Assembly: GCA_964036295.1 (NCBI GenBank)
Contig: OZ038466.1
Coordinates: 930,001-994,000, forward strand
Direction of reading: 5' to 3'
DNA length: 64,000 nucleotides
Source of the DNA: Plumapathes pennacea
Lineage: Eukaryota; Cnidaria; Anthozoa; Antipatharia; Myriopathidae
Both the position numbers and the translations under genes were made by a program. The notes beneath the pieces were generated by a model, which was not told the origin of the DNA, made no database searches, and saw only the letters and a program-made list of their open reading frames with translations. Positions 7,022 to 64,000 of this stretch are shown piece after piece (position 1 is the stretch's first letter; every line of letters starts with the position of its first letter).

Positions 7022-7303
7022 AGCCAGCCCATTTCACGGGATCTCCACTTTTAAATCAGAGCCTCACTGAAGGGCAGGACCTTATTTTGAAATGTGAAGC
7101 AGGTGGTAAACCTCAGCCAAACATCACCTGGGTGGACGTTTCCAAGGGTCAAGTTGTTCAAAAAGGAAAAGGAAGTTCCACACTCCAGATTAACAAGATC
7201 GCCCGTCCTTCTAGTTCAGCAATGAGTTACGTTTATGAGTGTCAAGCGGTGAATATTCATGGGAGAGCTGCAATAAAGAAGAAGATCTGGATTACTGTTC
7301 AGT
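7022..7303 (+). CDS. Receptor exon: Ig domain 1
   Basis: The acceptor is a pyrimidine-rich tract ending TTTCTAG, and the donor is GTAAGT at 7304. The exon is phase 1 at both ends. The translation is an I-set-like Ig domain. The first cysteine lies in LILKC, the core tryptophan in NITWV and the second cysteine in YVYEC. It aligns along its length with the partly visible first Ig exon of the opposite-strand gene (63712-64000), sharing [10 protein letters not shown]. The next coding exon is 26.5 kb downstream, an intron packed with mobile DNA. Confidence 0.88.
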
Positions 7304-43300: not shown

Positions 43301-46300
43301 TATTATCACTTCATCTGATGAAGATATTCAGGCAACGTCCCTGACAGTTCGGTGGAACCCCCCTAATGATGACGGTGGAAGTTCTGTCACTGGGTACAGA
43401 GTCATTGTCAGGGAACAGGGATCAAAAGTTGTTAAAAATGTTTCCATTGGGAATGTGCAACAGCAGGATTTTGGGGATCTTAAAATTAGCACCAACTACA
43501 TATTGGAGGTCTCCGCAATTAACGTCGCAGGAGAAGGTCGACCAGGAACCAAAAGTATCACAACTAAATTTGAAGGTATGGGGCCTGGTTAATTTGCCTT
43601 ATATAATTTAGTATTTAGCAGGCCACCACGACTGCGTACCCTACTGTCTTCACACTTCTGGTGATGTTCATGTCGGTAACTTCCACCGTTTATTTGCGTC
43701 TCACATTATGTGATAATTTAAAACTGATTGGTTGTATCATTTTCCCGAAATTGTTTCAACACAATTAAAATTGTTGCTGTTGTTGATGATTTTTTTTTCT
43801 TTTTTGTTTTCCTCTATCCAAGGAGCACCGGAAGCAGCAGAGTTGAGCATCACAAATACTAGCGATCCTCGAAAATTTGAACTTCGATGGACCAAACCTA
43901 AAGACAATAGGTCACCCATCACAAGTTACACTATTTATACAAAGCTGATCTTGGGAAATGGGAACGAGGAAGCTTGGGTGAAGAATAAGACTGTTAGTGA
44001 AGATGTACGATCATATATGATTACTCTAGAAGCAGGGAAAACATTCAAAATCGTTGTCACTGCCAGCAACAAGCTGGGAGAAGCGAAGAAAGAAGAGAAC
44101 CGAGTCAAGACCATCATAGTACCAGAACGTAAGTATTATTGTTATTTATGTATTTTCATATATTTGTATCCATTTTTTGTTACTGTAGGTCAATGGTTTT
44201 ATATACAAGCAGTTGAGAAAATAACTTTTTTGATGTCGGAATCAATATATATATATATATATATATATAGCCCTTTGCAAAAATTTTGAGCCCTCAATAT
44301 ATATCACTATATACAAGTATCAAGTGCATTGTGGGAAGAGCTCAACTGGAAAATTTTCTTCCCCAGCCGAATAATGAGGAGGAACACGCAGTAATCACTA
44401 TATTTTGAACTTAAATACCTTTCTGGTAATATATTGTTCTGAGTTGTGTGGTTTGTGTGCAAATTTAGAACCATTACCTTCCCACAATGCACTTGATATT
44501 TGTATATAGTGATCTATATTGAGGGCTCGAAATTTTTGCAAAGGGCTATATATATATATATATATATATATATACTTCTCCAATCTTTTTAACTAAATTG
44601 TATTGTAGTTTCTAAGGCGTTTGGCGGTCTTTTCGTCTTTTTCTCCTTCTATGTTTCGCATGTACGGGTGACACGCTACTATTAATGAAAGACACACACA
44701 GAGAATGCTCCCTTGTCTTGTATTTGCACTAGCTTCGGAGGTCCATTCCGATTTAGTTTATTCAACTGAGAATTAAATAATGATACACCGATTACAAAAA
44801 GGAAAAAAATATTTAGAACTGGAAAAATAACCGACGCTGAAAACGATACTTACAATTCTGTGGGACGATGGGAGCATTTCCCTTTCGATTCGAACGGTAA
44901 AAAACATTGCACTTTTCTTAAAACTCGCACGCCCTTTGGCTTCTCGTTGCTCGCCACCCTCTCCAGTCCCCCTCACTCTCACTCTCCCCAGTCCTCACTT
45001 GATGAGAATGAACGAGAAAAATATTGGGGACGAAGTGCAAACCATTCTATTTCTTCTTTCTTTTCATTTCTTGTCGCAAATGGGCCGCGTTGCGAGGAAT
45101 GTGACTTTGAATGTGTCGAATTATTTGAAACGATGGTCATCAATGGAACATACGTTTCGCCTTCAGTGCATGAAAACGCGTTCATGTTTTTTAATTTCTG
45201 ACAAGTTTCTCAGATGGTCATTTTTAAAATCCTGCTTTTTGTTTACACTGACGAGTCCCGTCTTGTTGTCCGCTGTGAACTTGAGTATAATGCACGGTGA
45301 AAACCACATACCAGAACAAGAAGCACTATTTTTTGTGATTCGTTTTTCGTTATCCGAATGTACATGATAATTATGTATGAGTAATCCCGAAAAAGTGAAT
45401 GATCGTATAGGAATATTGGAGTGCTTTTTGTTCGCTTTCCTGGTACAAAATGTGCGTACTCATTGAAAAATAGTCACTTTGTTTCTCGGACAATATTTCG
45501 TTGTTACATATTTTCTCGTTGACCTGGGACACTTGGAGACTGCAATAATCTCCCATGCATTCGTTCACCGTTTTTACATATCTATTTTCAATGTTTCTTG
45601 CTTAGGCAGACAATTCCAATAAGTGTGAGCAGCCGTACGAATATTAAGTCGCTTCTAAGTAGCTGTTACTAACTATCCATTGCAGTGCCAACGGGTCATT
45701 TGACGTACTATTTTAAATAGTATATATTTTAACATTTGAACAGGTATGATAATTTGTTTAAAGTTTAAGTTTCCGAAATGATTTTACCAAGTCTACACAT
45801 AGATACCTTGTATTTTATACCTCAACTCCAGCAACGCCATCAACTGGAAGTAGTACCAGTGACGGTGCACCTGAAAGTACAGTTCATGCAGGGACAGTTG
45901 CCGCAGGAGGGAGTGATGAAAAGAGCACAGACCCTGTTGTTATTGGTGGAGCAGTTGGAGCCGTGATACTGGCCATTATAGCCGTTGCAATAGGAGTTCC
46001 CTTATGGAGGAGGAAACGGCAGGGGGGCAAAGGTATTGTTTGCAATAAGTGATCACTAAAAGTTAATATAACGTATGCTCAGGAGTATTTCAATTTGGTG
46101 TTGAGCTGATTACTTATCGTTTGTAACACGAAGATTCACGTTAAAGAAAGAAACCGCTTTTATATTCTGTTTAGACTTAAATTGGAGACTAAGAGAAAGT
46201 AAAATAAATGTACAACTGACTAACGGACAATCAAGGCAATGTGATCTGTGGCGTTGCGATTTCAGCAGTAAAATCTCAGGCATATTGTACGTATTTATCT

Positions 46301-46761
46301 TATCCCTCGTCCTTCTCACTGGCTCTCATTTTCACCAGGCCATGGAAGTGTTTCGTCTAGGGATGCATTGTGAGTATTACATGTTTCATAATGTTTGTTG
46401 ATTTGAATTGTAATAACTGGGCTTGTGGCCTACCTCATTATGTTGCACTATCACATTTGCTTGTGCTCTACTATTCAAGTATTCCATTCTTAAGAGTGAT
46501 CAATTTCAAGGAGAACTTGGATTTTGATACCTTGCTTAATAAAAGCTCGCTAAAGTTGTAAATTCTCACTGCATTCCTCACATTATTTCTTCTGAAAAGG
46601 CTGGGAGAATCTAGATTTTGAGCTTGGGAGTCAAATGGTTAACCTGATAATGTTTATGTAACGACCCCTTTGACAATTAAAGTTATATAGTATCCAAATC
46701 TTCTATTTTCCTGTATTGCTATTCTGCATTTTTGGTGTTTCTTAGTTTTTTGTTTTTTTGT

Positions 46762-46803
<42 letters not shown>

Positions 46804-47518: not shown

Positions 47519-50094
47519 ATGTAATGTGTTCTAAACTCTTTATTGCCTAACAGCGATCAAGGCATGTAAATGTACTGCGTCCTTAAACCCTTTGTTGCCT
47601 AACAGCGATGAATCACTTTTCGTTTTTCAAAATATAATTATAGCAAACTGTAAAAAATATTAATGCTGTTGAACTCTTCCATCAGACTTCGCATGTTGCC
47701 TCGAATCTCCAATCGTAATTGTTTAGATATGAACCGTTTAGTTCACTTAGTTCACATTATAAGTTATCTCTGTATCCATGTACGTGTGTCTGTGTCTGTG
47801 TGTTTTGACTAATTGTTACTGAAGATGTCTTGGTTGTCTTTTTCTGGTTCTGGTTGACTTTATGTTGGCCTTTTCTTTACTTTGTTACTGTCCCTGAAAC
47901 CCTTTAATCAACGTACAAACAATCCTAACCTTACAGATACACACAAGTGAGTGCTCTCACAAGTTTAATAAACACGAATGAGGAGGCCACTTGAGATCAC
48001 TGTGGTGGAAGCCACGTCGTGTGCCAACCTGAACCTCAAACCTTATCTTCTAAGCTATCTGGACAATTTTAACGGCGGGCCATTTACGAGATACCTGTTC
48101 CTCTGTTTCCAAACTAGTGCACAACCTTATGAAAATGTGTTCGAATTGCATATTGCATGACAAGGCACATGCGACTGAAATATATTTTCATGAAAAAACT
48201 AAAAGGTTTCACACTTATTTTTGCTTTGAAACAGAGGCAAGAGGCATCTGAGAAATGGATTTGATTGATTAACTGAACTGTGAAAGCTCTTAAGCATTCC
48301 TTGCAATTATCTGTGTTGTGTGTCGATAAAAATTTTGGTCAGGATAATTTTCTGATTCTGTTTTGTGCTAATACGACCAAGGAAGTAAAGCCATCAGTGA
48401 GTACTAATATGAAAACGAACTGGGTACCGCTGACTACTAATAAGAACAAGGAAGTACATAAGATAAGCATTGGACTGGCGTTTAATAGCTGCATTTAACA
48501 GCAACTAATGTTCTATTCTTAGAGTTTGTAATCTATTGACTTTCCAGAGCAAAATCTGGAATCGAGCTCACTAACAAAGTGAATTTCTCAAAATACGTTT
48601 TCTTTTCTTGACAGCAGCATGCTGAGTGATCTACGAAAGAAAGAAAGGTTTTGTTTTTGTTTTGTTTTGTTTTTATTTTTGTTTTTGTTTTAATTTTTTG
48701 TTTTTGTTTTTGTTTTTTCGGTAAGGGGAAACAAAGGAGTCCTCGGTGACTGTTTCCGTTTTGTTTTCGTTTGACTATTGAAACAAAGCTTGATTTCCTT
48801 TCTAACATATATGTCTTTCGTACAAGCAATTATACTTAGCTACAATTAGTTTATAATATATGCATTTTGCAACATGATTTTTAAAATAATTTTGATAGTT
48901 TTACTGCGGTAGCACTAGCGCTAGAACCGTGCCTACTTGCCTTGGGTTATTTGTATATGCTTAGCACATTCCAAACACGTGATCCAATGTGACGGCCTGT
49001 CGAAACAAAGTTCGTGTCCGGGCCTGTAGTGCTCTTGAGTTGTGCAAGATAAACAAATATAATAAATTTACGTGTTTCGACCAATATTGGACAGTCCACG
49101 TTTGTGGTTCGTAAGTTTCAAATCCCTTCTGTCAGAGGTTCGGAGATCAAACAACATTTTTACAGTACATTCGCTATCAAACTATGAGGTTCACACATTT
49201 TAAACACTCGCTTGGTTGACGTCACAAGCTAGCACACGCTTACTAGCACCAGTGTGACCGCAGCATTACTTTAGTACGAGAAACTTACAATATACTTGAG
49301 AATTTACATTGCAGATGATTTATAAGTTAAACGTTTGATGTTCCGTGTGAGTTGTTACTGATAATTTTTAAATATTTCTTTCAAAAAGATGCTATACATT
49401 AGCTCCACATATTTTTCCAAATGCAGAATTTGTCCGTCCTGTTTTCAAAAGAAAGGTCCATAGCATCTGATTTTCACCCAGAAAGTGTCGAAGTTATTGT
49501 ATGGGTATCAGTGAAGTAACACTGTGACTGATTGTTGCTGTCGTGATTACTGACTTAAATCAATAAGAGGAGAGCGGGTTTCATGTCCGGATTTTTTTAT
49601 CAATATGTCTGCATAAAACGGACGTTACATATTGACTCGATTCGATTGGTCAGTGAGAGATGTTGAACGTGGTTCTACTAGGAAGTTTTGAACTGGTGTG
49701 TTGCTACGCGACGAAAAGATGACAACGTGGACCACACCCAGAGGCACGTTTCCTGGTATTACCCGTAAGTCGCACTGCAGCTGTAATGCTGCAGGCGTCA
49801 AACAAGAGTCTGTAAGCTTCGAGTTTCTCATTATCAAAATTTTCACTCTGTTAAAAACCTTTCGACAAAGAAGCAGTGTTAAATGATATTGTACTGGTTC
49901 TGATTTGGTTTTGTCTTGATTTGTTTGCGGAGCTGATGAACTGAAGCAAATAACGTTTGATTTATACATTAATACCCTATAGTGGAAAGTTTTTTAACGT
50001 ACATTGTAGCGGAATATTTGCATACATGACTTTTTTTTTTTTTTTTTTTTTTTTTTGCACATTAGCCTCCGGTCGCACTCGTAACTTTAACGAC
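47519..50094. other. 3' UTR and intergenic region, left part
   Basis: This holds the presumed 3' UTR of the + receptor, with a 30-base phrase GGCATGTAAATGTA...TTGCCTAACAGCGAT tandemly duplicated just after the stop (47511-47610). A (TTTTG)n tract lies at 48645-48717 and a T-run at 50031-50056. No further coding exon could be supported. Confidence 0.55.
47967..47972 (+). terminator. Candidate polyadenylation signal of the + strand receptor gene
   Basis: AATAAA occurs about 450 bases after the stop codon of the + strand receptor, in a stretch with no other coding signal. It is placed plausibly for a 3' UTR end; there is no transcript evidence. Confidence 0.4.
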
Positions 50095-50593
50095 ATTGGT
50101 TGCGGTTCCACTTACAAAAAACAACGGTGTAACGCATGGTGTTTACAGCGTTGTAATAGCAGCGCGATCCCACTCGAAAATAAACACCGGTGTTTAGCAT
50201 GACGCGTTGACAGATCGTTGTCAAACGCGACACAAGTCAGAATTTGCATGCGCGGGGCACGTGTCTTTCAATATGCCGGACCAAGAAGAAATAATCACTG
50301 CTTTGATTGCGAGTTTGATCTTCATCTTCGCAAATTACCGGATGCTGCGAATAAGAAATTTTCTCTTGATGCAGTACATGCAAGTTCTTGGCTGCAATTA
50401 AAATTTGGTTTTTTAAACACCGATAAACCATGCTCCTGAGCGTCGTTCACACCGCTGTTAAAACTCTTTGAATTTACCGCGTAACCAGGGAGACAAACAC
50501 CAACAGCGGGAGCAAAACTTTTGCGGTTCCACTTATAACAGTGACATTTGCTGTTTACACTGGTGTTAAGGCTCCAGTGGAACCGCAACCAAT
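50095..50593. mobile_element. 499-bp TIR element between the two receptor genes
   Basis: ATTGGTTGCGGTTCCACTTA at the left end and AGTGGAACCGCAACCAAT at the right end are inverted. CGAC lies just outside on both sides. The interior has degenerate inverted phrases (GGTGTTTACAGCG, CTGTTTACACTGGTG). No coding capacity. Confidence 0.65.
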
Positions 50594-52203: not shown

Positions 52204-52272
52204 TTACACACCACCAAGTTCATCCACATTAGCATACAAGGAACCATCATACTCCCTGAGGTTTATGTAGGT
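52204..52272 (-). CDS. RTK last exon: 22-residue tail with YINL and YANV
   Basis: The acceptor is TTTCTCCAG; phase 0; stop TAA at 52206-52204. It encodes [18 protein letters not shown] and ends LGGV. The two outer tyrosines give YxxL-x7-YxxV spacing, both with Asn at +2. This matches the end of the + strand kinase-less receptor. Confidence 0.9.
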   Translation of the reverse strand, partial: TYINLREYDGSLYANVDELGGV

Positions 52273-55200
52273 CTGGAGAAAAACAAAAAATATATAAACA
52301 AAAAAGAAATACAGGTTATTAAAACATGATATATATAATGTTAATACAACGTTTACGAGATCTCTATCTCTCATGTGTTACGAATGCAACTTACTCTGTG
52401 GTTCCTTTCCATTTTGGCAATGACGTCCTTCAGTTCATAGAAGGTTGGTCTCTCATTTGGGTGTTCTTTCCAGCAGTCAGTCATGATGCTGTAGCTAAAT
52501 AATCAATTATAATTGATTTGTACAAACGTGACTATGGACAACACAATTAGGCAGATATAGAAGGAGTTTACAAAGGTGGATGTACACCCTCCTAGAAGGG
52601 TCAAAATATACCCCCCCCCCCTCCCTTCCCCACATCCCACCTACACGTGCCGAGCGCTATATCAATCTCATAACATGGCAGCCGGTTTGAGATAGTGGAG
52701 GGTAATCTTATCTAGAGCGTTTACGTGGCCAAAAATTGTCATCAATTATCTCTAACTCACAGTCGATCTTCCAGATGTGATGGTTTCGGCATTCTATAGC
52801 CCTCTTGTAAACGAGCAGCAATACGACGACCATCCATATTAGGGTAAGGACGTCCACCTATACATTTGAAGGGAACCAGAAATTATACGCACCGTATTTT
52901 ATGATATTGTAAATAATTTCTAAAAATTACGCGTGAGATATAGTGCCTACGAAATGATCCTTGATTTTATTTGATTTTATTTTATTACTGGATTTCTGAA
53001 GTAAATAAGATATATTAAAAACGTGGGATGTCCAAACATGATATAATTTATGAAGAATTCAGTGAAAACCTGTGGCGGGTCCAGGACGGGTTTGAGGGAC
53101 TCAGTCGAACCTCCTCGCTCATTCATTAAGGAGTTTAAGAAGGCTACGACGACGACAGCAAAGCGAGTGACCTAAAAAAAGAGTATTTCTATATTCCTTT
53201 TGTCTTTGTAACTTCGCTTATACCTGGTCCTCACTAGCGCATAAGCATAAGCATAAGCGCAAGCATAAGCATAAGAATATGAGAGCGACAGTGGCGACAT
53301 AAGCATAAGCATAAGGAACGGAAGCGTTTGATACTTAGGCTTATGCTTCTGTCGCCACTCTTGATTTCTTGATGAGAAAGCAAGTTAAAATTCATCAGTT
53401 GACTTACCTATGGTAAAAATTTCATACAGCACAACTCCAAAGCTCCATCTGCAAAACAAAATGTGTAAGTGAAATACATATTAAAACAAGACAGGCCCGT
53501 GGCCAGTGCGCTTGTGACGTCATTAGTACAATGAATAGAGACACGCGGGGTCCCGGGAGAGGAACTTTTGTCGTGCGTTTATATGCAAAAGATATTATAG
53601 CCGAGTCAGTTTTTGCACATGACGGATCCAAGAGCTCCCTTTATTTTTCTTGCCCTCTTTTCTTCTAATTTCGGTCAAACAGATATTCACGAAAAAGTGT
53701 ATTATAATAATTGAGAGAAAACAATTATCGAAGGCCCCGTAGGAATATTCTTCGTTTGCAACAACCCAGTTTTCATTGCTTTCCGATGCACGTGACAGTA
53801 CTTGTGTGACGCTTGCTATACAACCTGGCAACCTTTCAAGCTGACATGTTTTGTGGAGGAACTGTGTTGTCATTTTGTAATGGGATTGACTGGGGAATAC
53901 CCGACATCTTAAGTAGCTGTAAGACAGCATAATAGCCTTATCTCATCTTCCCAGCGTGTGCATCATGTTCAAGTAGCTGTAATTGAAAGCTTTCAGACTT
54001 ATCTCTGTAGCACATTAAAACATGACACTTCCCATGATGAAATTACTTCATATGAAAAAGCCATCTCAGACGTTACTCATCCTACATGTACAAGTCTGAT
54101 CACTAATATGTTCAAGAATGCTATGCATTAAGCTTTAACGCAAAATTCTGGGTCGATACGAAATTAATCTCTATCGGAAGCTGCAGACGTTTGAATACCG
54201 TGACAACAAAGGCGTGCATCACGGGCTTGTGGAGCGAACATTACGGCTCGGATAGTCGGATATCAACCTTGAGCTTTTGAAGACTTCGAGGTATTCAGTG
54301 ACAAATATTCTCGATGTAATCGCTGCCGGTGTAAGAGTCTTTTTTGCCCCCCCTGGCAAAAATGCCTCCCCGGGCATTATTGCCCAGGCAAAAATGCCTC
54401 CCCGGGCTTTTACGCCCAGGCAAAAATGCCTCCCCGGGCATTTTTGCCCAGGCAAAAAAGCCCTCTCTGTGTAAAAATGCCCCCCATTCACAAAATCATC
54501 GATTTCGTAAGTAAGTAATTCTGATCAACAAATCCGTGCACAGCTCGTCCGTGCGTAAACATAGGATACTGAAATAATCAAATTCTAGCCAACATCTGGA
54601 TGTAATCAGTTCATACTGTCAAGTGCTGCGTGACCTGTGGTGTCTTTGATGAACTGTTTCGAAGGAGTGAGGTGGGCGGACGGACGGACGGACGGAAAGA
54701 AACGGGATGGTGGCGGGGGGGGGGAGGGGGGTGAGGAATTCCACTCGCCCTCCTCGTTTTATTCGTGCACCCCGCCCTACCTTATTCGTCACAATCCGCG
54801 TGGGACTAGAAAATAAAATAGTTTCTTTCGGGAGAATATCCCCATTTGCCAAACTTAGCGTGCGGCGGAAACAATTATCGCTGCTTTTTTGTGTTGGAAT
54901 CGTTCTCGGTTTACGGTGAATTTTGATATAACAGAGAACGCGTGGCAGAAATTAAACCTGACAGGGTTAGGGTTAACGGCGAACGTCTGCGAGGTCTCTC
55001 TCGGAAGACATTTCAGTTCAGCGATCTGGGAACTTTTCAACTAATACTGTATCGAATAATAGCTTACCCACGTTGTGCCTCTAATAGTACACTTTTACCT
55101 TTTAAATTGCGTTTAGTAACTTGACAGCCGGATACACTAATTATTCAGTGGTGGACGAGAAACAGGTACTCCAAACGTCAATATTTCACGTTCAAACTTT

Positions 55201-56013
55201 ACCCTGTACAGAATGTCATTGAAGTCGTTTGTTTCTAAATACAACGGCAAATATTTATTTGGTCTTTGTTGAAATACATTTCCAGTTAAGTGGGAAAAGC
55301 ACAAGTTGCGACCCTTAATATGATTATTGTACTTTGATTAGCAATTGTAACTTGACATATCATGTCGGATACAATTGGCTTATCATAGGCGAAAGCCAGA
55401 TTGTCCAAAACGACTCACATTTGTAACGCTTGCCGAGGGCACGGAGCAGAACGAACTCACAGGTCACTAACATAACACTTTAATTACAAACGGTCTGAAC
55501 GCTACGAAGAACCTCAGAAATCCCCTTCACAAGTCTAAAGTACACGTACAGTCATACAGTAGAACAAAGGCTATACAAAAAAGCGAAACAATAAAGAAAG
55601 GCTACTTCACAATAATAATCAAGTATTGTATTAAACGGATATTCCAAAGATATCTGAGTTGTGACTCAATAGATACAGACACGTACTGTATTGTAATCAC
55701 TAACTAAACGCAACACAGTGATCAGTGTTGGTTACAATATGATTAAACAAAATAAAAGAACGAACTTTTTAAATAATAGCTTGCCCGAAAGACTATCAAA
55801 ACAGCAATTTGAAATTTGCTGTCGAAGATGACAAAGGTTTTGCTCTCGGAAATGCCAAGACACTCAATGACAGAGAAATCGCAGGCAGCCCACAATTTAT
55901 TTTAGAAAAGTTTCAAAGCAAACCGCAAACCTGATTTCAAAGTTCTCGAAATGGAAGGGAAAGAATATAAAAAAGTGAGGAGGGTAGTACCCTCCTTCCC
56001 CCTCTCCCCTGAG

Positions 56014-56045
<32 letters not shown>

Positions 56046-59000
56046 TGCGTGTTTTCTTTTCTCTCCATTGGCCCTCCCCTTCCGTTTGAGGAGGTGTTAA
56101 ACAGACGCCGAGGTCAACCAGCGTGACGCGCGTCACGGAAGGTGCACGCTCCCTGTGGAGTAAGATAAGAAAGTCCGGAATCGGTGTCACATTTTGGCGC
56201 AACTGAATAATTCTCTTTTATGACGCCTTAGAAGAGTCCTGGTATTGTGCTAACCTTTTTGAATATGCCTTTGTTTGTATTTAAGTATCCTTGTTTGGCT
56301 AGAGTTATTAGCAACTATTGAAACGACCTTTCTGAACGCCGGGCATTTTAGCCCAGAGGGGGAAACTGTATCTACAGCATTTTTGCCTGGGCGGAAATGC
56401 CCGGAGGGCATTATCGCCTGGGATAAAATGCCCGGGGAGGCAAAATATTGGGGGGGCATTTTTGCCCACTACACCGGTCTTTCCTGCTTTTGTTAAAGCG
56501 GAAAGTGAGTGAAAGCTAAGTAGCTGATGATTCGGGATTCCCCGTTCTATGATATTATGCTCGTGACATTTCATTGACAGATCTTGTATCTTAATCTCGC
56601 GTGATATTTGCCTCAAACCTATTAGTAATTCAATATCCTCAGACAATAAACAAAGAACCTTTATTATATACATACTGAGACATACTCACGAAAAAGTTAC
56701 TGCACGCAAAACGAAGTTAAACGCCGACTGTTCGTATGCGCCGCGCGTTACATAAAGCCGCAGAGTTCCTGACAAAGGGAGACGCTCTGCCCGCAGGGAA
56801 AAGTTCAAGTTCTATCAAGTTTCGACACGTCTTCTACTACTTATTCGATGTTCTTTCATACAAATATTGCTCAGAACACAGATACATTGGTTGAAGCGGT
56901 ATCTATAATCGAGCATTTGCAAAACACAACCCTTCGTACTTTACGGGGGTCCCGCTGGTAACACATCAAGCATTTGTGTACGGCTATTTTCAAGTCTTCC
57001 GACGCTTAAAAACAATGCAAGCCAAAATCGCTCTTAAAGTATGGCTTCCGTGCATCCAGAAAGCCAACCGATGATCGTTTTGTTTGGATCAACAACTGAA
57101 GGACCGGAATTTTTTTCTATATCCCTTGACAGAGAAAACCCATTGTACTTGGTTCTGTGATTTTGATCTCTGAGTACGTCTGATCTTGCAATGCCTGTTT
57201 TTTTAACACATTTTAAAATACAAACGTATCTTAGCACCTCGGTTACTTTTGGCAATCTTCTTTTTGAGCTTCTAGCTTTCTCGCAGCGATGGTTTATTGA
57301 TCCTAATTTTCTCTTTCCATTTCCATCTGTGGCTTTTTATTGTTTACATGTTGTTTACATGCACGTTCTCGGAACGCATTAGCATTGTGAAGTACGTAAG
57401 CTCGGGTATAATCATGAACTTTTGACGACTTTGGGACATTCTTTGAAATGTATTCTTGTATTAGTCGCCTGCTTTTTCTACTCTTGTTCAAAATGCGTGA
57501 AAGGTTATTCAAGGGTACGTGGCTTGGCTCACGACTTCGTCTTGCAGGACTTCGGTTTTCTTTCACATAAACATTTGTGGGAATACAATAAAACTGAGCG
57601 AAGCGAGATCTACCAACGGTCACTTTTCCTCAGCCATTTCCCAATTTTCAAATAATAACGCCATCTGTTCCACTGATTGTTTGACCTTCATGGCACCGAG
57701 CCAAAATGTCGCAACAACAACATAAATGCACATAAATGCACAGCAGAGTGAAATTTTGATCCCAAACAAAAGCCAGATTTTCTGACGCTTTACTTGTATC
57801 AACAAGAATAATACAAAGTACCTTCAAGTTCACCCTCATACTAAACAGTTCCATATAATCCGCTATCAAGCGCTTGTCAAGAATCGCCGTCTTTACACAG
57901 GTTCTCGTCTTTGTATGTCGAGCGGCTTCGTTCAGCTTGTTCCTTCAAGTTCTCAAGGTTCTGGATGTCAAATTCTTCGTACATTTCTATACAGTTGTGC
58001 ATAGTTATGCAGTTCATTGATAAGTTCATTGCATTTGCTTTCATGGCTTTCAATATGGCTTTTGAGGCTGAACGGACCGACCCAAGCCAAAACCGCTCAA
58101 TGAAATTTAGTATGGGTCTACCGCAGCCGGCGTATGCGTTTGTAAGTAAGATGAGCGGTCCATAAAATGATCCACAGAGCCAACTAAGGCAAGCAACTTG
58201 CTGTCTTCAAAATGGCGAAACTGCTCGCCCGCCAAGTCACTTGATCACAACGTCATCACAAATCACATGATAATATGAACCAATCACCGCATGCAGATCT
58301 CTAACCCAGAAAAATAAAAAAAATAAAAAAATCGTTGCATTTTAAAGCTTGTGACGTCACAAGCAATTAACTGACCTCACTGGGCAGAATTGTATATGAT
58401 ATGTTTCACAGTAAAATATCAATACTCTTAAATTCCCATTTGATACTTTTTGTTAAACAAGTGTCAAAATCACGAGCCACTTCGGCGAGTAATTTCGAAC
58501 TCTTTCAAGTGTTTCACAATACCTCAAGTGTTTATATAAGTACAAAGGCATGAAAACGCGTGATATATTAACTTTAAAAAGTATACAAAATTTGACTTAC
58601 ACATCACTCTGAGTAGTGTATACCCCATAAAGTAAAGATTCATACGCGGTCCACTTCACAGGCAGACGACCCTGAGGAGCATAGAAAATCAGGGAATGGA
58701 AACAAAATGCAGCTTCATAAAAATGCCAAAACTTATCAGTAAGTGTGATGCTGAAAGATGCAAGGGACTAACTTTGCTTCTCTTGGTGTAGATGTCATCT
58801 TGGTGCACATCCCGCGCCATACCGAAATCCGTCACTTTGCATTTCTCTCCTTCCCCAACCAACACATTTCTGGCGGCCAAGTCGCGATGAATAACCTGGG
58901 CCAAGGAAGGTTAAATTATTTAAGGCACGATTGCCTCGAGTGACACATAAAACTTTTGATAACATTAAATCAAGTCGTAAGAAATAAAAAATTGGTCAGA

Positions 59001-62000
59001 TGATATGAGAAACCAGAAATCCAGTAATCATTTGGGTCGGAGATGGAGGGGGAATCGAAGGGGGTCGGGTAAAGTTTCAAGCAGTAGATACAGCAGCATA
59101 ATGTTATGGGCATAGTCAAGGCTCTTTCCTAAAACTCTTGTGTGTTATATTCAATATATCTCTGTTCTCTTCCTGTTACCTTCTTAGAAGCAAGATAATT
59201 CATCCCATCAGCGATCTGCCACGCAAACTTAATTAGCTGCTGTGACGTCAGGTCGGTTCTTAGCTTAACATCCGGGTTCTTGTAATAATTGTCGTTCAAT
59301 CCGCGGCTCTTCCTCAGGTATCCTAACAAGTCTCCATACGGTACATACTCAATTACCACCATGGGAGGTTCTGCCATAATAAGATTTTAAGCAATATATA
59401 CATGAATACATATAACGTAAATATCATTAGCGTGCAAGCAAGCTACCATATCAAGACTAAAACTTATCAATATGGGTTATAATATATCACAAAAATGATA
59501 ACATTTTGGCTTTTAATTGCTTTAAATTGGTTATTCTATGAGTTTGTTTCTATCTGTAATTTTAAAGGAGAGATCACATATGGCCTGCTTCCTGCTGTAT
59601 TTATTTTTGGCCGCTATTACCTGATTCAGTGACGCATCCAAGAAGTTTAATCACGTGAGGGTGAGACTCAAACGTTTTCATCAGTTCGAGTTCAGCGAGC
59701 AAGTCTCTCCTGTCTGTAGCTGGAGCTCCGTCTGTAATAACATCATGACCGATTAACATGAAAATTTGAGAGAAGGATTATCCGAGTAGCTTTCTCGTGC
59801 AGTTGAATAGATGCATGGAAGAGTTCATACATTTTCTCAGGTTATTTTTCCATTAATGGACACATTGAGCAAGTAGACTATATTTTCATCGTAGTGCTGA
59901 AATCGTTTCAAGACTAATATTTTACCTTTCAACATTTTCACTGCCACTGTTACCTCTCCTCTGACTCCACGAATACCGGACACCGTTGCCTTGCCAACTT
60001 TTGAGAACGCGCCCTTTCCAATAATCTTTAACACATTGATGTTGGATCGTTTAACTTCCCAGCTCCTAGTCCTGGGCACTAGAGGCATGTACTCACTGGG
60101 TGGCTTGGGATACTGGGTATTTTCATTGTCTACTAATGTCTCAGTGTTGGATTCGAGTGTCTCCTCATTTGTCTCAATTATAGTGTCCTAAAGTTATAAT
60201 AAACAACATAAACAAAGTTATATATAATAAGAAAACTGTATCATTATAACAATAACAAGATAACGCAGGATTTTGATTTGATTAGACATGGAGAAGTGTA
60301 GAAAAGCGCAAATAGATTTGAAACACTCACCATTTGATTTCCTTCTCCTCCACATTGACCGCATATGAATCTAGCGAAAACAGTTGTAACTATTTAATAG
60401 GAGCATTACGGCCCTTCTGAAGCAAGGCAGTCAAATTTAATTAGAGTTATTAGTTAAACTTTTGGTTCCCATATCGGTTTCAGACAATACTCTGAAGGGA
60501 TTTTTATCTGTTCAGGACTGAAAGGACAGAAAGGACTTTAATTTCAACGTGAGCAAAAATGGATACTCACCCACCAGGCTTTGGCTTTCCTAGAGATGAA
60601 ATAAAATAATAGAATCAGTAAAATGATTTTGCAATCCCTGCAGAAACATTTGAAGATGGGCCTTAAAACAATTCTGTGCCTTTGGAAAAACACAAAACAT
60701 ATTTCAAGTGCGGAATAAATGATCAACTGCTGTTCACGTACCTCGTGCTCTTCGACAGATGAAGAGAAGTTGTGCCAGGATGATGAAAACCAAGATAGCG
60801 ATTACAACTCCATAAGCGATGTGAACTGTTCCACAGTCACAGCTTCCTTCAATTTAAAATACAAGCACCGTGTTTGCAGCTGACTCATTTCAAGAAAATA
60901 TTACAATTCAACTAAGGATAGAAAATAGCTGCTGCGGTACGAGTCAGGAAAAAATATTGTTTTCTATTTTCATAATTTGACATCACCTACCAGAAGAAAT
61001 TGTTCCTCTGTGAACATCGGGAACTGTTGAGTTTCATTATATGTCATTCATAAAGCATTTAGCCCAAGAACAAAACACAAGAAAGGAAGCTATACACAAA
61101 TGTTAAAAAAATACATGAGCTACCTTGAGTAGTTTCCCCCGTGCTTCTCCGGAAACGGGCAGTATGTACTGTTAGAATTATGAAATATTCAGAAAGGAAT
61201 AAGTCAGCTAAAGAATAGGGAAACCATGCCGGATATTTTATTCGATATCAAGAAACTTTATCCAGTTACTGACTGTAGTCCACGACAAGATCAGAAGCGC
61301 CACATATTTTTTATCATAATTTCTATATAAGTATAATATATAATATATCAATATAAAGATTGCACTTCAGACGAAGTAGCTGAGCTCTGAGCTCAAAAGT
61401 TATGACAAGAACCTCAAAGAAATTAGTGCTGCTTTTCACAGCTACGGTTCAGCAAGTTGCCAATTGACTGAGCCTTCAACGACAAATTGCACCTGGGTAT
61501 CAGCTTCAATCGTTTTTATGACAAACTAAATCTATAGTATAATTAAATAGATGTGCTCTCTACAAGCAAATATGGCAAATGAGTACTACCTTCTGGTACA
61601 TAGATAATCCTGATCCGATTTTCCTTCACTGCTTCCCCAAACTTATTTGATGCCGTAACAACAATCTCGTAGTTTTTTCCAGGATTGAGAGCGATGTTAT
61701 AAGACTGAAATTCTTTCTGCACTGTATCTACATTATCCCATTCCTTTGAGCCGACCTCTCGCTTGTAGATTGTATAACTTGTGATGGCTGCCCCGTTGTT
61801 TATAGGTTCAGTCCAACGAACTTCAAATATGCAAGGATCTTCAGTGGATAATATCGTTATTACTGCTGCTTCAGGTGCACCTAAAAAAATGATGAGAAAA
61901 AACATTCAAAGTAGGGAGAAATAGAAACGGGTTATCAAGGTCAAAATGGAGCTAAGTGTAATTAGAACTTGTCCAAGTTAGTTACGTAGTGTTAGTTATG

Positions 62001-64000
62001 ACGAAAATATCGAAATTGTTCATAAACATATTATACAGTCATGCCTGCTTCATGTATTCGGTAACGTTATTTATGATTTTATCATAAACTGAACAAACAT
62101 GATTATTACATAAACATCAGTCATCCCCAAATATAAACATGGATTTGCCACTTGAATAATTAATTTGTTGTCAGCGTGGATAGATCGAGCTGTAGAGTAG
62201 ATTTGGAACTTACCTTCACTTTTTGTAGAGAAAGCCTTCCGTGCAGGTAGACCCTCTCCTGCAACATTCTTTGCATACACCTCCAATGTGTAGCTCGTAC
62301 CTTTTATCAGTGGCGTTATAACTGATCTGGTTTCTTTAGCGGCAAAAGTTTTATTGAATTCAGATTGCAGAACTGTAACTCTGTACCCAGTGATTTGACT
62401 TCCACCATTGTCGACAGGAGGAGTCCACTGAATGGTCAGGGACACAGCCTGGATGTTTTTGTTAGAAAATGTGATGATGGGTGAACCAGGCTTATCTAAA
62501 GGTAAAACATTAATTCAATAATTATCAACAATCACGAAGAACAGCTCTGTGTTTCTTTTCAATAAATATTGTAAAGCGGTGAAGGTTAGGTGGAGTGAAG
62601 AAAGTCAAGAGATAAAATTTAAAAGTATTTTTCGTTTTTGTAATTCATATGTGACATTTGTAATTTGCACGTACAGTATATAACAATAAACAAATGAGTG
62701 TCAAGAAGGTGTGTCACCATGACGCACACATTCTTCATTTATCAACCGCACAGTTCAGATCGAAAGAACTTTGTTAAAACTTGATTTATTCACAAATAAA
62801 CCGTGACTTCACTTGAGTTCACTGGAATTTTTTTTCGAGAATTACAGGACCGATATCACCTAAATTTTTTAAAACGACGGTTTATAGTCGGCACTCACAC
62901 CGTCAAATCACTGTAAGTGACGCAGTTTCTGTATGTGAGCCGACATTACTTGCGGGCAGTTACATGTAAGATATGTAAAGGAGGACAATAACCATGATAC
63001 GTTTTCAGAGTCTAACGTCCGTTTTCATCTGAATTTTTATGTACTTCCGTGAAAGTGGACTATTCATAAAGAGATAGTCTCTACAGAAAGATACAGACTT
63101 ACTTATCTGAAAAATATGAATTGCTAATACGTCTGCACGAGGAAACATATTCTCAGCACTGCACTTGTACTGCCCGAAGTCTGCTGTTTTCTTGAGATTC
63201 AATTCTAATGAACTCGTGGTACTTTTTTCTTGCTTCAGCTGCGACCCTTCAGGTGTGGTCCACGTGACAGTTGGGACAGGAACTCCACGTGCTACACATT
63301 TCAGAGTTACAATCTGTCCGATCCATGAAGATGTGTTGGACGAAGACGCAGCCCTGTCAATCACAGCTCTGTCTGTGATTAAAAGCGCACAACACCCTTC
63401 AGAATTAAAGTGGATCTAAAGACACAGTCATGACTAGTAATATAAAAAACATATCAATGTTCTCAGAACAGAACAACGCACAAACAGAACTGACGATAGC
63501 GAACTTGTTTGGGTATCTTAAAACACAGAACAAGGGAACTTTGACAGTTATATATATATATTTCCAAAAACTGCAATATTATACAAATTTTCCAGATAGG
63601 GTTCTGAAAAGTCTTTACACACTGTTTTTTGCTGTATTGTATACCTTTATTTGTTAAAACAGTCTGTGACAATTTCAGGTGATATCTTATAAAAATGTTT
63701 AACGTACTTACAATTAACAGTAATCCTTGTTTGATTTATTAATGGAGCTCTTCCAGGAATATTCCCTGCGTGGCACTCATAAATGTAGCTCACTGCTGAT
63801 CCACCAGGGCGCTTTATGTTGGTAATTTTGAGCTTGGAAGTTTGTAGTCCCCACTGAATTACCTTAAATCCATTGAAAACTTGCACCCAGGTAATGTTTG
63901 GCTGTGGTTTTCCATCTGCCGCACAGCTTAAAGTAAGATCTTCACCTTCAGTGATAGAAAGGTTGGACGGTGGTATTACTGTAAAATGGACCGGCACTAT
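52204..64000 (-). CDS. Receptor tyrosine kinase, Ig-Ig-FN3-FN3-TM-kinase, multi-exon, 5' end outside window
   Basis: The - strand exons, in transcript order, are 64000-63712, 63372-63103, 62495-62214, 61880-61590, 61168-61124, 60846-60742, 60589-60571, 60370-60331, 60187-59926, 59731-59621, 59370-59180, 58895-58773, 58671-58601, 53448-53408, 52857-52761, 52494-52395 and 52272-52204. Every junction is GT-AG, and phases close to 801 codons including stop from 63997. The kinase has the glycine loop [15 protein letters not shown] lysine, HRDLAARN catalytic loop, DFG, SDVWSFG and CW...RPTF. It is therefore predicted to be an active tyrosine kinase at the plasma membrane. The tail is only 22 residues and holds YINL and YANV. 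It is related to the FGFR/VEGFR-like RTKs; I cannot assign a vertebrate orthologue. It converges on the kinase-less paralogue, with the stop codons 4.7 kb apart. Confidence 0.9.
52395..52494 (-). CDS. RTK exon: kinase C-lobe end
   Basis: The acceptor ATTATTTAG and donor GTAAGTTGC give phase 2-0. It encodes [20 protein letters not shown], with the conserved CW and the subdomain XI arginine, and then [13 protein letters not shown]. Confidence 0.92.
52761..52857 (-). CDS. RTK exon: kinase C-lobe
   Basis: The acceptor ATGTATAG and donor GTGAGTTA give phase 1-2. It encodes [20 protein letters not shown] and [13 protein letters not shown], the standard RTK alpha-G region. Confidence 0.92.
53225..53365. 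repeat. (GCATAA)n hexanucleotide tract with hairpin end
   Basis: CATAAGCATAAGCATAAGCG units are repeated in two blocks. The flanks GTGGCGACATAAGCATAAGC and GCTTATGCTTCTGTCGCCAC are inverted. Confidence 0.8.
53408..53448 (-). CDS. RTK exon: SDVWSFG core
   Basis: A 41-base exon (acceptor GTTTTGCAG, donor GTAAGTC) completes SDV and encodes [13 protein letters not shown], the alpha-F core of the kinase C-lobe. Phase 2 to 1. Confidence 0.9.
53478..53935 (-). repeat. Repeat J, inverse copy in the RTK intron
   Basis: This is the inverse of 23376-23473 and 24347-24645. It is continuous where the forward copy is interrupted. Confidence 0.75.
53936..57075 (-). repeat. Repeat P, inverse copy, split by element G
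   Basis: 53936-54329 is the inverse of about 11940-12285, and 56478-57075 is the inverse of about 11370-11950. They join at GCCGGT in the forward copy. The gap is element G. Confidence 0.8.
54330..56473. mobile_element. Element G: 2.1-kb insert with palindromic GCCCGGGGAGGCA arrays and CCGG duplication
   Basis: The insert begins TGTAAGAGTCTTTTTTGCCC and ends GGGCATTTTTGCCCACTACA, with CCGG on both sides (54326-54329 and 56474-56477). Near each end lie repeated hairpins of the type CCCGGGCATTTTTGCCCAGG and AAAAATGCCTCCCCGGGC. The interior has a (GGAC)n run at 54672-54697 and (TA)n at 56019-56035. No transposase frame was found, so it is probably non-autonomous. Confidence 0.75.
57076..57255 (-). 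pseudogene. Retroelement or helicase ORF remnant with a damaged 2A-like motif
   Basis: The - strand frame reads [17 protein letters not shown], then SVVDPNKTI. The 2A self-separation consensus is DxExNPGP; here the first proline is serine. Such 2A motifs are known upstream of several non-LTR and related ORFs in invertebrates. Only about 60 residues remain. Confidence 0.5.
57263..58368 (-). repeat. H repeat, copy H2 (ORF broken)
   Basis: It matches 27040-28255 in order, from GCTTCTAGCTTTCTCGCAGC to the end hairpin AAGCTTGTGACGTCACAAGC. The ORF survives as two frames. 57303-57623 has [20 protein letters not shown], and 57620-57869 has [21 protein letters not shown] frameshift separates them. 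Confidence 0.75.
58601..58671 (-). CDS. RTK exon: substrate-binding P+1 loop
   Basis: The acceptor is CTCCTCAG, phase 0-2. It encodes [20 protein letters not shown] and then SD, with the valine codon split across the intron. The usual APE triplet is AYE here. The following intron is 5.15 kb and full of repeats, and the next exon begins with the rest of SDVWSFG. Confidence 0.9.
58773..58895 (-). CDS. RTK exon: catalytic and activation loops
   Basis: This 123-base phase 0-0 exon contains [14 protein letters not shown] (catalytic Asp and the AAR tyrosine-kinase signature), [11 protein letters not shown] (metal-binding DFG) and a single activation-loop tyrosine in DDIYTKRSK. The donor is GTTAGT. 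Confidence 0.95.
59180..59370 (-). CDS. RTK exon: kinase hinge, insert and alpha-E
   Basis: The acceptor ATGGCAG and donor GTAACAGG give phase 1-0. It encodes the hinge [18 protein letters not shown], a short kinase insert with [10 protein letters not shown], and alpha-[20 protein letters not shown]. Confidence 0.92.
59621..59731 (-). CDS. RTK exon: kinase alpha-C helix
   Basis: This phase 1-1 exon encodes [15 protein letters not shown], including the alpha-C glutamate that pairs with the VAVK lysine. It continues [14 protein letters not shown], the typical RTK beta-4/beta-5 approach. Confidence 0.9.
59926..60187 (-). CDS. RTK exon: juxtamembrane segment and kinase glycine loop
   Basis: This phase 0-1 exon carries an acidic juxtamembrane segment with [14 protein letters not shown] and [15 protein letters not shown]. 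The kinase start follows: GKGAFSKVG (GxGxFxxV nucleotide loop) and VTVAVKMLK, which contains the ATP-positioning lysine. Confidence 0.92.
60331..60370 (-). CDS. RTK juxtamembrane exon
   Basis: A 40-base exon (acceptor CGCTAG, donor GTGAGTG) encodes [14 protein letters not shown] and takes the frame from phase 2 to 0. The CxxC and Gly-rich sequence is not a motif I recognise. Confidence 0.6.
60571..60589 (-). CDS. RTK juxtamembrane micro-exon
   Basis: A 19-base exon (acceptor ATCTCTAG, donor GTGAGTATCC) encodes KPKPGG and shifts the frame from phase 1 to phase 2. The next exon at 60370 requires exactly this, which is the main support for it. Confidence 0.6.
60742..60846 (-). CDS. RTK exon: transmembrane helix
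   Basis: A 105-base phase 1-1 exon encodes a short cysteine-containing stretch (SCDCGTVH), then the helix [20 protein letters not shown] and the basic CRRAR stop-transfer segment. The acceptor is AATTGAAG and the donor GTACGTGA. Confidence 0.85.
61124..61168 (-). CDS. RTK short stalk exon
   Basis: A 45-base phase 1-1 exon with acceptor TTCTAACAG and donor GTAGCT encodes [15 protein letters not shown], a short extracellular stalk. A further 21-base, frame-preserving, exon-like segment lies at 60987-61007 (acceptor GTTCACAG, donor GTGATG, encoding EEQFLLV). It may be an optional exon and is not counted in the model. Confidence 0.6.
61590..61880 (-). CDS. RTK exon: fibronectin type III domain 2
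   Basis: The acceptor is TTTTTTTAG and the donor GTAGTACTC, phase 1-1. It begins GAPEAAV and has [18 protein letters not shown] and [15 protein letters not shown], ending VPEG at the splice. It is paralogous to 43823-44128. Confidence 0.92.
62214..62495 (-). CDS. RTK exon: fibronectin type III domain 1
   Basis: The acceptor is TTTACCTTTAG and the donor GTAAGTTCC, phase 1-1. FN3 hallmarks are [23 protein letters not shown] and [16 protein letters not shown]. It is paralogous to 43285-43575 on the + strand. Confidence 0.9.
63103..63372 (-). CDS. RTK exon: Ig domain 2
   Basis: The acceptor is TTTTAATCACAG and the donor GTAAGTCTG, phase 1-1. The translation contains [25 protein letters not shown] and [10 protein letters not shown]. 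It is paralogous to the + strand exon 33840-34106. Confidence 0.9.
63712..64000 (-). CDS. RTK exon: Ig domain 1 (runs off the window)
   Basis: The Ig fold is seen in [16 protein letters not shown] and [14 protein letters not shown]. The donor is GTAAGTACG, phase 1. The upstream boundary lies at or beyond the window edge; by comparison with the + gene exon at 7022, only a few bases are missing. Confidence 0.85.

Follow-up and report, generated by a model that had tools for sequence, protein, structure and literature searches.

Candidate arms of an anthozoan paired-receptor system: a receptor tyrosine kinase gene and a kinase-less receptor gene that share an ectodomain plan

Introduction

The best-known paired receptors whose ectodomains undergo gene conversion come from immune loci of vertebrates. 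Receptor tyrosine kinases (RTKs) can also have kinase-less relatives. FGFRL1 is a kinase-less paralogue of FGFR with a similar ectodomain, but it is a single conserved gene with three Ig domains, no FN3 domain and no repeated ectodomain exchange, and the FGFR ectodomain is itself Ig-only. In sponges, the sponge adhesion molecules (SAM) lack a kinase and carry Ig domains similar to those of the Geodia cydonium RTK; likening the two by description, we know of no exon-block exchange or conserved phosphotyrosine tail in the RTK/SAM couple.

That sponge RTK has an Ig-like ectodomain, according to the work cited in PMC12018476. In vertebrates, PMC5701461 describes Siglec-11/16 ectodomain exons as homogenized by gene conversion within lineages. 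Among invertebrates, Hydractinia Alr and Botryllus FcoR are receptors encoded in allorecognition gene complexes and bear ITIM/ITAM-type cytoplasmic motifs; they resemble the receptors reported here in those motifs, as compared by description, and the portion of PMC12065747 describing them mentions no partner that has both a kinase and their ectodomain.

Results

The window, the whole 64,000-nucleotide stretch of Plumapathes pennacea DNA analysed here, contains no N and carries two genes, KL1 on the + strand and RA on the - strand (Table 1). Both run past the window edges, with V-set exons outside.

Table 1 Exons and flanks of KL1 and RA. Positions are those of the window unless prefixed C5.
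Gene	Feature	Position	Strand	Remarks
KL1	V-set exon	C5:928315-928725	+	Upstream of window; open
KL1	Ig1 exon, phase 1-1	7022..7303	+	tblastn; PF13927/PF07679
KL1	Decayed third Ig exon (IgX)	29484..29766	+	In-frame TAA and frameshift
KL1	Ig2 exon, phase 1-1	33840..34106	+	tblastn, Pfam
KL1	FN3-1 exon	43285..43575	+	91% aa identity to RTK W1
KL1	FN3-2 exon	43823..44128	+	86% aa identity to RTK W1
KL1	Transmembrane exon: stalk and VIGGAVGAVILAIIAVAIGVPLW	45832..46032	+	
KL1	Short juxtamembrane exon, phase 1 to 2	46339..46369	+	101 bases, flanks included, match KL2 at 77% (DNA)
KL1	Tail exon T1	46897..47050	+	YADV, YAQV
KL1	Tail exon T2 with stop	47312..47518	+	LVYADL, SDYADI, PTYDNL, ATYANV; 97-99% aa identity in KL2, KL3
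KL1	3' flank	47519..49500	+	DNA identity 86% to KL2, 83% to KL3
RA	V-set exons, two, beyond window	C5:994965-995216 and 996598-996861	-	
RA	Ig1 exon, truncated at window edge	63712..64000	-	
RA	Ig2 exon	63103..63372	-	
RA	FN3-1 exon	62214..62495	-	
RA	FN3-2 exon	61590..61880	-	
RA	Transmembrane exon	60742..60846	-	Segment by eye
RA	Short juxtamembrane exon	60571..60589	-	
RA	Juxtamembrane exon with CxxCG motif	60331..60370	-	Aligned by eye to CPRCGDL of P0001, P0002
RA	Juxtamembrane and kinase N-lobe exon	59926..60187	-	PF07714
RA	Kinase exon 2	59621..59731	-	
RA	Kinase exon 3 (signature exon)	59180..59370	-	
RA	Kinase exon 4	58773..58895	-	
RA	Kinase exon 5	58601..58671	-	
RA	Kinase exon 6	53408..53448	-	
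RA	Kinase exon 7	52761..52857	-	
RA	Kinase exon 8	52395..52494	-	
RA	C-tail with stop	52204..52272	-	TYINL, LYANV

RA is open and encodes a receptor tyrosine kinase with an Ig-Ig-FN3-FN3 ectodomain, a transmembrane (TM) segment and a tyrosine kinase domain (PF07714, E 7.1e-93). Its two FN3 domains, identified with Pfam, set it apart from FGFR. Within the window RA has the layout of the TAM receptors (Tyro3, Axl, Mer), namely two Ig and two FN3 domains, TM and kinase. TAM kinases carry KW(I/L)A(I/L)ES, however, and RA differs from them in its extra V-set exons, in reading KWTAYES at this motif and in its kinase, which among single-kinase PDB entries matches RET best and FGFR next (among the best 60 of 2608 matches). 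The named coral RTKs found are 41-46% identical to RA; the coral RTK search scored the 7994 candidates sharing most words and may have missed RTKs of Pocillopora and Stylophora.

KL1 repeats the ectodomain exons of RA in the same phase. The first-pass annotation had reported such counterparts for four exons, and all were recovered, at identities of 56% (Ig1), 55% (Ig2), 49% (FN3-1) and 51% (FN3-2), with tblastn E values of 5.7e-25 to 2.5e-20. Every pair has GT-AG boundaries and phase 1-1, as read by eye in both genes, except at the RA Ig1 acceptor, which lies beyond the window edge. The same annotation had assigned a kinase to the - gene alone and a tyrosine-rich end to the + gene, and both assignments hold: a kinase query matched the window in RA and not in KL1, and KL1 proceeds from FN3-2 through the TM exon and a 31-base exon to T1 and T2, closing with a TAA stop. 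Six of the seven tyrosines in this tail sit within Yxx[ILV].

The absence of a kinase from KL1 is not an assembly gap, because the window contains no N; the tail exon also recurs at three loci. At the two loci other than KL1, no same-strand kinase was present in the DNA read. We likewise rejected the idea that an RTK could end alternatively in the KL tail, as the RTK loci read contain no T2-like exon.

Three kinase-less receptors (KL1, KL2 and KL3) are present in this genome, with 97-99% identity among them in T2, and each has its FN3 twin in a different RTK. Identities over Ig2, FN3-1 and FN3-2 are 77, 91 and 86% for KL1 and W1, 91, 93 and 95% for KL2 and S1, and 79, 83 and 85% for KL3 and PA, against just 40-56% between the FN3s of any two KLs. 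Ig2 is less clean, with KL1 and KL3 mutually closest there (89%). W1 lies at C5:12.60M, 12 Mb from KL1; its ectodomain (C5:12.598M and above) is linked to its TM and kinase (12.587-12.592M) by one-strand adjacency across the unread interval 12595001-12597000.

These comparisons divide an earlier claim. Linkage of an RTK to a kinase-less paralogue with one ectodomain plan is supported, while the convergent couple in the window is not supported as being itself the matched pair: the KL1 FN3s that match W1 at 91 and 86% match RA at 50 and 55%, and we reject KL1 and RA as each other's nearest relatives. The two are cousins rather than twins, with 50-56% identity across Ig2 and the two FN3s. No KL in the genome is a twin of RA or of its three R-type copies: over the same domains, none of the three KLs exceeds 58% identity to them.

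Block homology between KL and RTK genes extends into introns (positions 43159-44147 of KL1 share 90% DNA identity with W1, introns included), and KL1-3 also share their 3' flank. KL and RTK genes are thus mosaics of common ectodomain blocks together with their introns, produced by gene conversion between phase-1 exons or by their unequal exchange. The genes lie in duplicated arrays with many copies. At the RTK at C5:1147-1151k, searching 10 kb more for an ectodomain yielded a single Ig exon; at the SX gene (C2:13.811M), none was seen up to 13.825M.

Selection differs along the KL genes: simple pairwise Nei-Gojobori estimates on these short exons give omega values of 0.04-0.12 for T2 and 0.32-0.70 for FN3-1 and FN3-2 between twins. 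T2 is under purifying selection across the three copies, and the KL tail is strongly constrained. This bears on whether KL1 is a decoy or a dying gene, a kinase-less relic that would at most sequester ligand. The stop and frameshift in IgX fit such a relic, as do the repeat copies held in the large KL1 introns. However, every other KL1 exon found, the outside V-set exon included, is open with usable splice sites, and T2 is both constrained here and conserved in corals. A counterpart of IgX free of stops exists at the PA locus (C5:878826-879035), and in three coral genera one isoform of each couple compared by eye (P0082/P0084, P0086/P0087, P0091/P0092 and P0093/P0094) lacks an IgX-IgY pair of Ig domains. 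Because coral isoforms can omit this pair, KL1 transcripts could plausibly be spliced past the decayed exon. We consider a relic very improbable. No signal-peptide exon was identified among the KL1 exons.

Receptors with the KL tail occur in seven coral species of five genera, and none of the 14 coral KL-tail rows contains a kinase Pfam domain. Six tyrosines are invariant in six aligned tails, from five coral genera and KL1. As in this genome, some coral KLs resemble RTKs outside the cell: Montipora foliosa P0083 (KL) and P0003 (RTK), and Porites lutea P0088 (KL) and Porites lobata P0004 (RTK), are 76-90% identical through the ectodomain and 18-27% identical past the TM, each range being joint for the two pairs. 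In Montipora and in Oculina, KL and RTK probably share a chromosome, as judged solely by their contigs being of equal length. Montipora P0008, a candidate kinase-less relative, was rejected; it ends within the kinase N-lobe and has no KL tail.

In a tree of ectodomains, KLs mostly cluster with RTKs of their own genome or genus and not with one another. A single KL clade is rejected (p-AU 1.3e-35), although the gap in log-likelihood, 928, is very wide and part of it may stem from incomplete searching of the constrained tree. The exception is the Oculina KL: a branch with 85/69 support excludes it from a sister position to the Oculina RTKs. The tree omits P0005 (Ig2 followed by a different FN3), the hemicentin-like P0095, the shorter isoforms P0082, P0083, P0086, P0092 and P0094, and own-genome loci not read for both Ig2 and FN3-1 (PB, C2:6.228M and others). 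The domain-tree test proposed in the first-pass annotation is thus positive, but for partners other than KL1 and RA.

Several coral KLs carry the NCBI name 'neural cell adhesion molecule-like', and the family could consist of NCAM-like adhesion receptors with no functional pairing, their ectodomain sharing being passive recombination among duplicates. Arrays with many copies would suit this account, and twin FN3 omega values of 0.3-0.7 fit relaxed constraint. Yet the shared sequence stops near the membrane in this genome, Montipora and Porites, and the tail tyrosines are invariant, a combination that passive exchange does not predict. We judge the adhesion account unlikely.

The tails are rich in signalling motifs. 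Yxx[ILV] exceeds expectation from composition in all eight KL tails tested (p up to 0.002). With [SILV]xYxx[ILV] or TxYxx[VI] as the ITIM/ITSM consensus, every tail has at least one ITIM match and seven of eight an ITSM match; at p<0.05, uncorrected for multiple tests, these exceed composition in six and five of the eight, respectively, which leaves two tails without a significant ITIM count on its own and three without a significant ITSM count. By this consensus, the KL tails have the motif content of ITIM-bearing receptors. All eight also contain at least two YxN motifs, and RTK tails too end in YxNL and YAN.

Such YxN motifs are what one would expect of a co-receptor or substrate, with each KL joining its RTK twin in a complex and offering its tail as a docking platform (YxN for Grb2-type proteins, YxxV/L for other SH2 proteins); the RTK signal would then be strengthened or rerouted, not opposed. 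The P-type RTKs PA and PB have a KL-like TM and T1 exon ahead of the kinase, so this segment is compatible with RTK signalling. The conservation of ITIM-like and ITSM-like motifs as well argues the other way, and we think a co-receptor or substrate role rather unlikely.

Discussion

We favour, at a probability of roughly one half, the reading that RA and KL1 represent the two arms of a paired-receptor system with many copies, RA being the RTK arm and KL1 the arm with the ITIM/ITSM/YxN tail. The likeness to paired receptors proposed in the first-pass annotation is borne out by the KL and RTK ectodomains: they are near-alike (up to 95% per domain) with unrelated tails, KL1 and RA aside (50-56%), and the similarity is kept within lineages, as mosaic blocks and the rejected KL clade indicate, the Oculina KL excepted.

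These type I receptors are assembled from V-set/I-set Ig and FN3 exons in two signalling forms: the RTKs combine a full tyrosine kinase domain with a short YxNL/YANV tail, and the KLs end in a conserved run of YxxV/L/I motifs. Under the paired-receptor reading, exon exchange or gene conversion keeps the ectodomains alike, so that each of the three KLs has an RTK with near-same FN3s. Twins would recognize one shared ligand, or interact with one another, whether in trans or in cis. Either the partner RTK or a Src-type kinase would phosphorylate the KL tyrosines; the ITIM-like (LxYAxL), ITSM-like (TxYADI) and YxN motifs would then recruit SH2 proteins, and KL output would oppose or modulate that of the RTK.

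Like the vertebrate paired receptors Siglec-11/16, and also CEACAM, CD300A/C and KIR, these are IgSF proteins with near-identical ectodomains and different cytoplasmic outputs. Unlike in vertebrates, one arm is a full RTK and the other a multi-tyrosine tail, and shared ligand and opposed output are putative. RA and its R-type copies, lacking a KL twin, and the dead Ig exon of KL1 count against our reading, and duplicated arrays may generate ectodomain exchange neutrally, as a side effect.

More tentatively, the system could serve anthozoan recognition, immune or allogeneic, with germ-line recombination copying specificities between RTK and ITIM/ITSM-tailed arms, each wirable to either output; RTK-joined paired receptors would then have arisen outside vertebrates. 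If so, anthozoans bear the same evolutionary signature, in which an RTK arm is matched by an arm ending in a conserved ITIM/ITSM-like tail, signalling output is swapped while specificity is kept, and these genes become a candidate system for self/non-self or symbiont recognition. The scheme predicts a shared ligand and trans-phosphorylation of the KL tail.

Two window genes share a plan but are not twins

The window (G000:C5:930001-994000, in a genome of 290 Mb and 24 contigs) holds a receptor tyrosine kinase (RTK) gene, RA, and a kinase-less receptor (KL) gene, KL1. RA comprises Ig1, Ig2, FN3-1, FN3-2, transmembrane (TM), two short juxtamembrane, eight kinase and short C-tail exons; its frame is open from end to end, its splice sites are usable, and its Pfam domains are two Ig, two FN3 and PF07714 (E 7.1e-93). 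With [12 protein letters not shown] and DFG both in place, its kinase is predicted to be active. KL1 runs Ig1, a decayed Ig exon, Ig2, FN3-1, FN3-2, TM, a 31-base exon and tail exons T1 and T2, the last with the stop. As the first-pass annotation had proposed, the four ectodomain exons have same-phase counterparts on opposite strands (1-1 in both genes, insofar as the window shows), kinase exons occur in the minus-strand gene only, and the plus-strand gene, which lacks a kinase within the window, ends in a tyrosine-rich tail. Outside the window, RA has two V-set exons (C5:994965 and C5:996598) and KL1 has one (C5:928315-928725), which brings the length of KL1 to 49 kb or more.

Just inside the membrane, RA carries a CxxCG motif (window 60331-60370, minus strand), found also in coral RTKs (CPRCGDL), that is possibly a metal or lipid site. 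The KL1 intron between FN3-2 and TM contains a long inverted repeat with (TA)n, MITE-like by eye (44270-44550). Large KL1 introns hold several repeat copies (25.6-26.9k, 31.9-35.2k and 38.0-38.9k, plus strand; translated stretches ~75-100% identical) and fragments at 19486-20037 and 31346-31777 that we take to be transposase- or reverse-transcriptase-like.

We collected family members by genome searches with FN3-2, Ig2, KL tail and kinase, and from the DNA of the loci. The kinase search gave at least 135 exon matches; by our own count from the match list, the third kinase exon recurs at >=60% identity in at least 31 places, at least 24 on C5 and at least 16 of these at 0.8-1.75 Mb. FN3-2 is 94-99% identical across RA, RB, RC and RD. 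In PB, FN3 exons were not found between Ig2 and TM. RD has in-frame stops in Ig1 and one V-set exon; this copy may be a pseudogene.

Receptor and tail loci of the family in the Plumapathes pennacea genome
Locus	Place	Strand	Type
KL1	window	+	kinase-less
KL2	C5:1135-1143k	+	kinase-less
KL3	C2:13.777-13.789M	+	kinase-less
RA	window	-	RTK, R-type
RB	C5:12.57M		RTK, R-type copy
RC	C2:20.38M (C2:20383724-20392186)		RTK, R-type copy
RD	C2:13.80M (C2:13805353-13808539)		RTK, R-type copy
S1	C5:1003-1014k		RTK
W1	C5:12.587-12.607M		RTK
PA	C5:868-880k (C5:868185-880431)		RTK
PB	C2:20.369M (C2:20369335-20378618)		RTK
SX	C2:13.811M		kinase
L035	C5:1560001-1566000		further tyrosine-rich tail locus
L036	C5:1725001-1731000		further tyrosine-rich tail locus
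L037	C5:1781001-1786000		further tyrosine-rich tail locus

Identities over Ig2/FN3-1/FN3-2 are 77/91/86% for KL1-W1, 91/93/95% for KL2-S1 and 79/83/85% for KL3-PA, so the FN3 twin of every KL is a different RTK. KL1 and RA, initially read as a matched pair, reach only 56/50/55%, and the window couple is therefore not a twin pair. Among the KLs themselves, FN3 identity is 40-56%; Ig2 identity is 89% for KL1-KL3, above KL1-W1 (77%) and KL3-W1 (82%), and 40% in pairs involving KL2; and 66-67 of the 68 T2 residues are identical.

Each of the three KL genes has an RTK-family kinase facing it from the other strand: RA lies 4.7 kb from the end of KL1, a more distant kinase (C5:1147k) 4.2 kb from that of KL2, and RD 8.8 kb from that of KL3. 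Two of three further tail exons (C5:1564k, C5:1729k, C5:1784k) have a converging RTK-family kinase within 18 kb and 12 kb; none converges on the third among the kinase matches listed. Since the arrays include mutual duplicates, these convergent cases are not five independent events.

Mosaic exon blocks and a constrained tail

The sequences show mosaic exon blocks, open reading frames and a conserved KL tail. KL1 DNA is 90% identical to W1 across the FN3s and their introns (43159-44147). In a comparison with 12 family loci, its V and Ig1 best match KL3, PA and RC (86-92%), and its TM reaches only 70-73%, to KL2, PB and KL3. From T1 onward, only KL2 and KL3 give long matches (85% and 72% over T1, 92% and 94% over T2 and its flanks, 86% and 83% over the 3' flank), with two short matches of 53 and 48 bases at the RD locus. 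KL2 is S1-like from Ig2 to FN3-2 (83-93%, introns partly within) and its TM lies nearer to PA (79%) and KL3 (81%); KL3 resembles PA both at Ig2 and from FN3-1 through TM (87%). In PA and PB, KL-type TM and T1 precede a complete kinase. As judged from sequence, mosaicism extends to kinase-bearing genes, as in RC, where V and Ig1 of KL/PA type join R-type Ig2, FN3 and kinase.

Synonymous divergence is similar in twin FN3 exons (0.07-0.13) and T2 (0.11-0.18), whereas omega is 0.32-0.70 in the former and 0.04-0.12 in the latter. This gap at like synonymous divergence indicates that the KL tail is constrained and the ectodomain much less so.

The crossover recurs in other corals

The RTK query matched 81 proteins at E<=0.001, with the best 7994 candidates scored. 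RTKs P0001-P0007 (P0002-P0007 from Montipora, Porites lobata and Oculina) are 41-46% identical to it; P0008, also matched, ends within the kinase. A KL-tail query returned 4 proteins and a Montipora-tail query 14. None of the 14 has a kinase Pfam domain; one of them, P0095, is a receptor of hemicentin-like type whose tail is related. KL receptors occur in Montipora capricornis, M. foliosa, Porites lutea, P. harrisoni, Oculina patagonica, Pocillopora verrucosa and Stylophora pistillata. The P. harrisoni protein P0089, with a KL tail, bears the source label '39S ribosomal protein L41', evidently a misnomer.

Identities counted per ~50-residue block reveal the same crossover, ectodomain alike and tail unlike. 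M. foliosa KL P0083 matches RTK P0003 at 41-45/50 over residues 251-600, 23/49 in 601-650 and 9-11 of 49-50 afterwards; Porites KL P0088 matches RTK P0004, from a different species, at 38-45/50 over 201-600, then 11-13 of 44-50; and M. foliosa KL P0087 matches M. capricornis RTK P0002 at 27-40/50 over 401-750, 20/49 in 751-800, then 6-9 of 31-50. Two KLs from different genera, P0088 and P0083, follow the opposite trend, with 21-30/50 over 201-600 and 35/50 and 40/50 in tail blocks 701-800.

In a tree of the ectodomain segments Ig2 and FN3-1 (25 rows, 11 KL), most KLs group with RTKs. KL1+W1 (100/99), KL2+S1 (100/99), KL3+PA (92/86) and KL_Plut+RTK_Plob (100/100) group together, as do two Montipora KLs with RTK_Mfol_a (100/100) and a third with RTK_Mcap and P0008 (98/96). 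A single clade of all 11 KL rows is rejected (p-AU 1.3e-35). An exception to the grouping with RTKs is the Oculina KL, which is not sister to the RTKs of its genus (85/69). The KL of P. harrisoni forms a long branch whose placement is uncertain, and for the Pocillopora and Stylophora KLs the set was without RTKs of their own genus.

Tail motifs and a possible signalling role

Six aligned tails have 35 invariant columns, with invariant tyrosines in YAxV, YA(Q/E)VDKSK, GELxYAxL, YADI, PTYxN and Y(S/A)N; P0087, a second Montipora KL outside this alignment, has NEL in place of GEL. We scored eight tails (KL1 and seven coral proteins, leaving out KL2, KL3 and shorter isoforms) against shuffled composition, using ITIM and ITSM consensus patterns and p-values uncorrected for multiple tests. 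Yxx[ILV] was elevated in 8/8 (p up to 0.002), YxN in 7/8 (p<0.05), ITIM in 6/8 and ITSM in 5/8, with no ITSM in the KL1 tail. Every one of the eight tails has ELxYAxL, which matches the ITIM consensus; ahead of YADI, seven have Tx, which is ITSM-like, and KL1 has Sx.

We give roughly even odds to a scheme in which twins would recognise the same ligand or have the same homophilic specificity, the KL tail, once phosphorylated, would recruit SH2 proteins, KL and RTK outputs would be different or opposed, and equal-phase exon exchange would open either output to any ectodomain. Ranking next are that KLs act as co-receptors and that the exchange is passive.

One account (PMC5701461) defines paired receptors by homologous ectodomains, overlapping expression and opposite signalling. 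At the sequence level, the KL/RTK family resembles them in ectodomain homology and lineage-wise homogenisation. Hydractinia and Botryllus allorecognition receptors are reported to have ITIM/ITAM-type tails (PMC12065747). We found no report of the RTK/KL arrangement in the open-access text consulted, which included a study of tyrosine kinomes (PMC8662651) and one of tandem duplication in corals (PMC10236652); the main text of the latter does not contain the word 'kinase'.

The two Ig and two FN3 domains give the RTK a look in common with TAM receptors, but among PDB single-kinase chains its kinase is nearest RET, then FGFR, not TAM; the PDB matches are headed by a chain that contains two stretches of EGFR kinase.

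The tails of L035-L037 contain SVDQSKKKK/AVDQSKKKK, GELFYADLSEF and YADIS, and Ig-like exons occur in two of these three stretches. The tail module seems common to more than one Ig receptor type; the last tail exon at these loci best matches P0095, a hemicentin-2-like Montipora protein.
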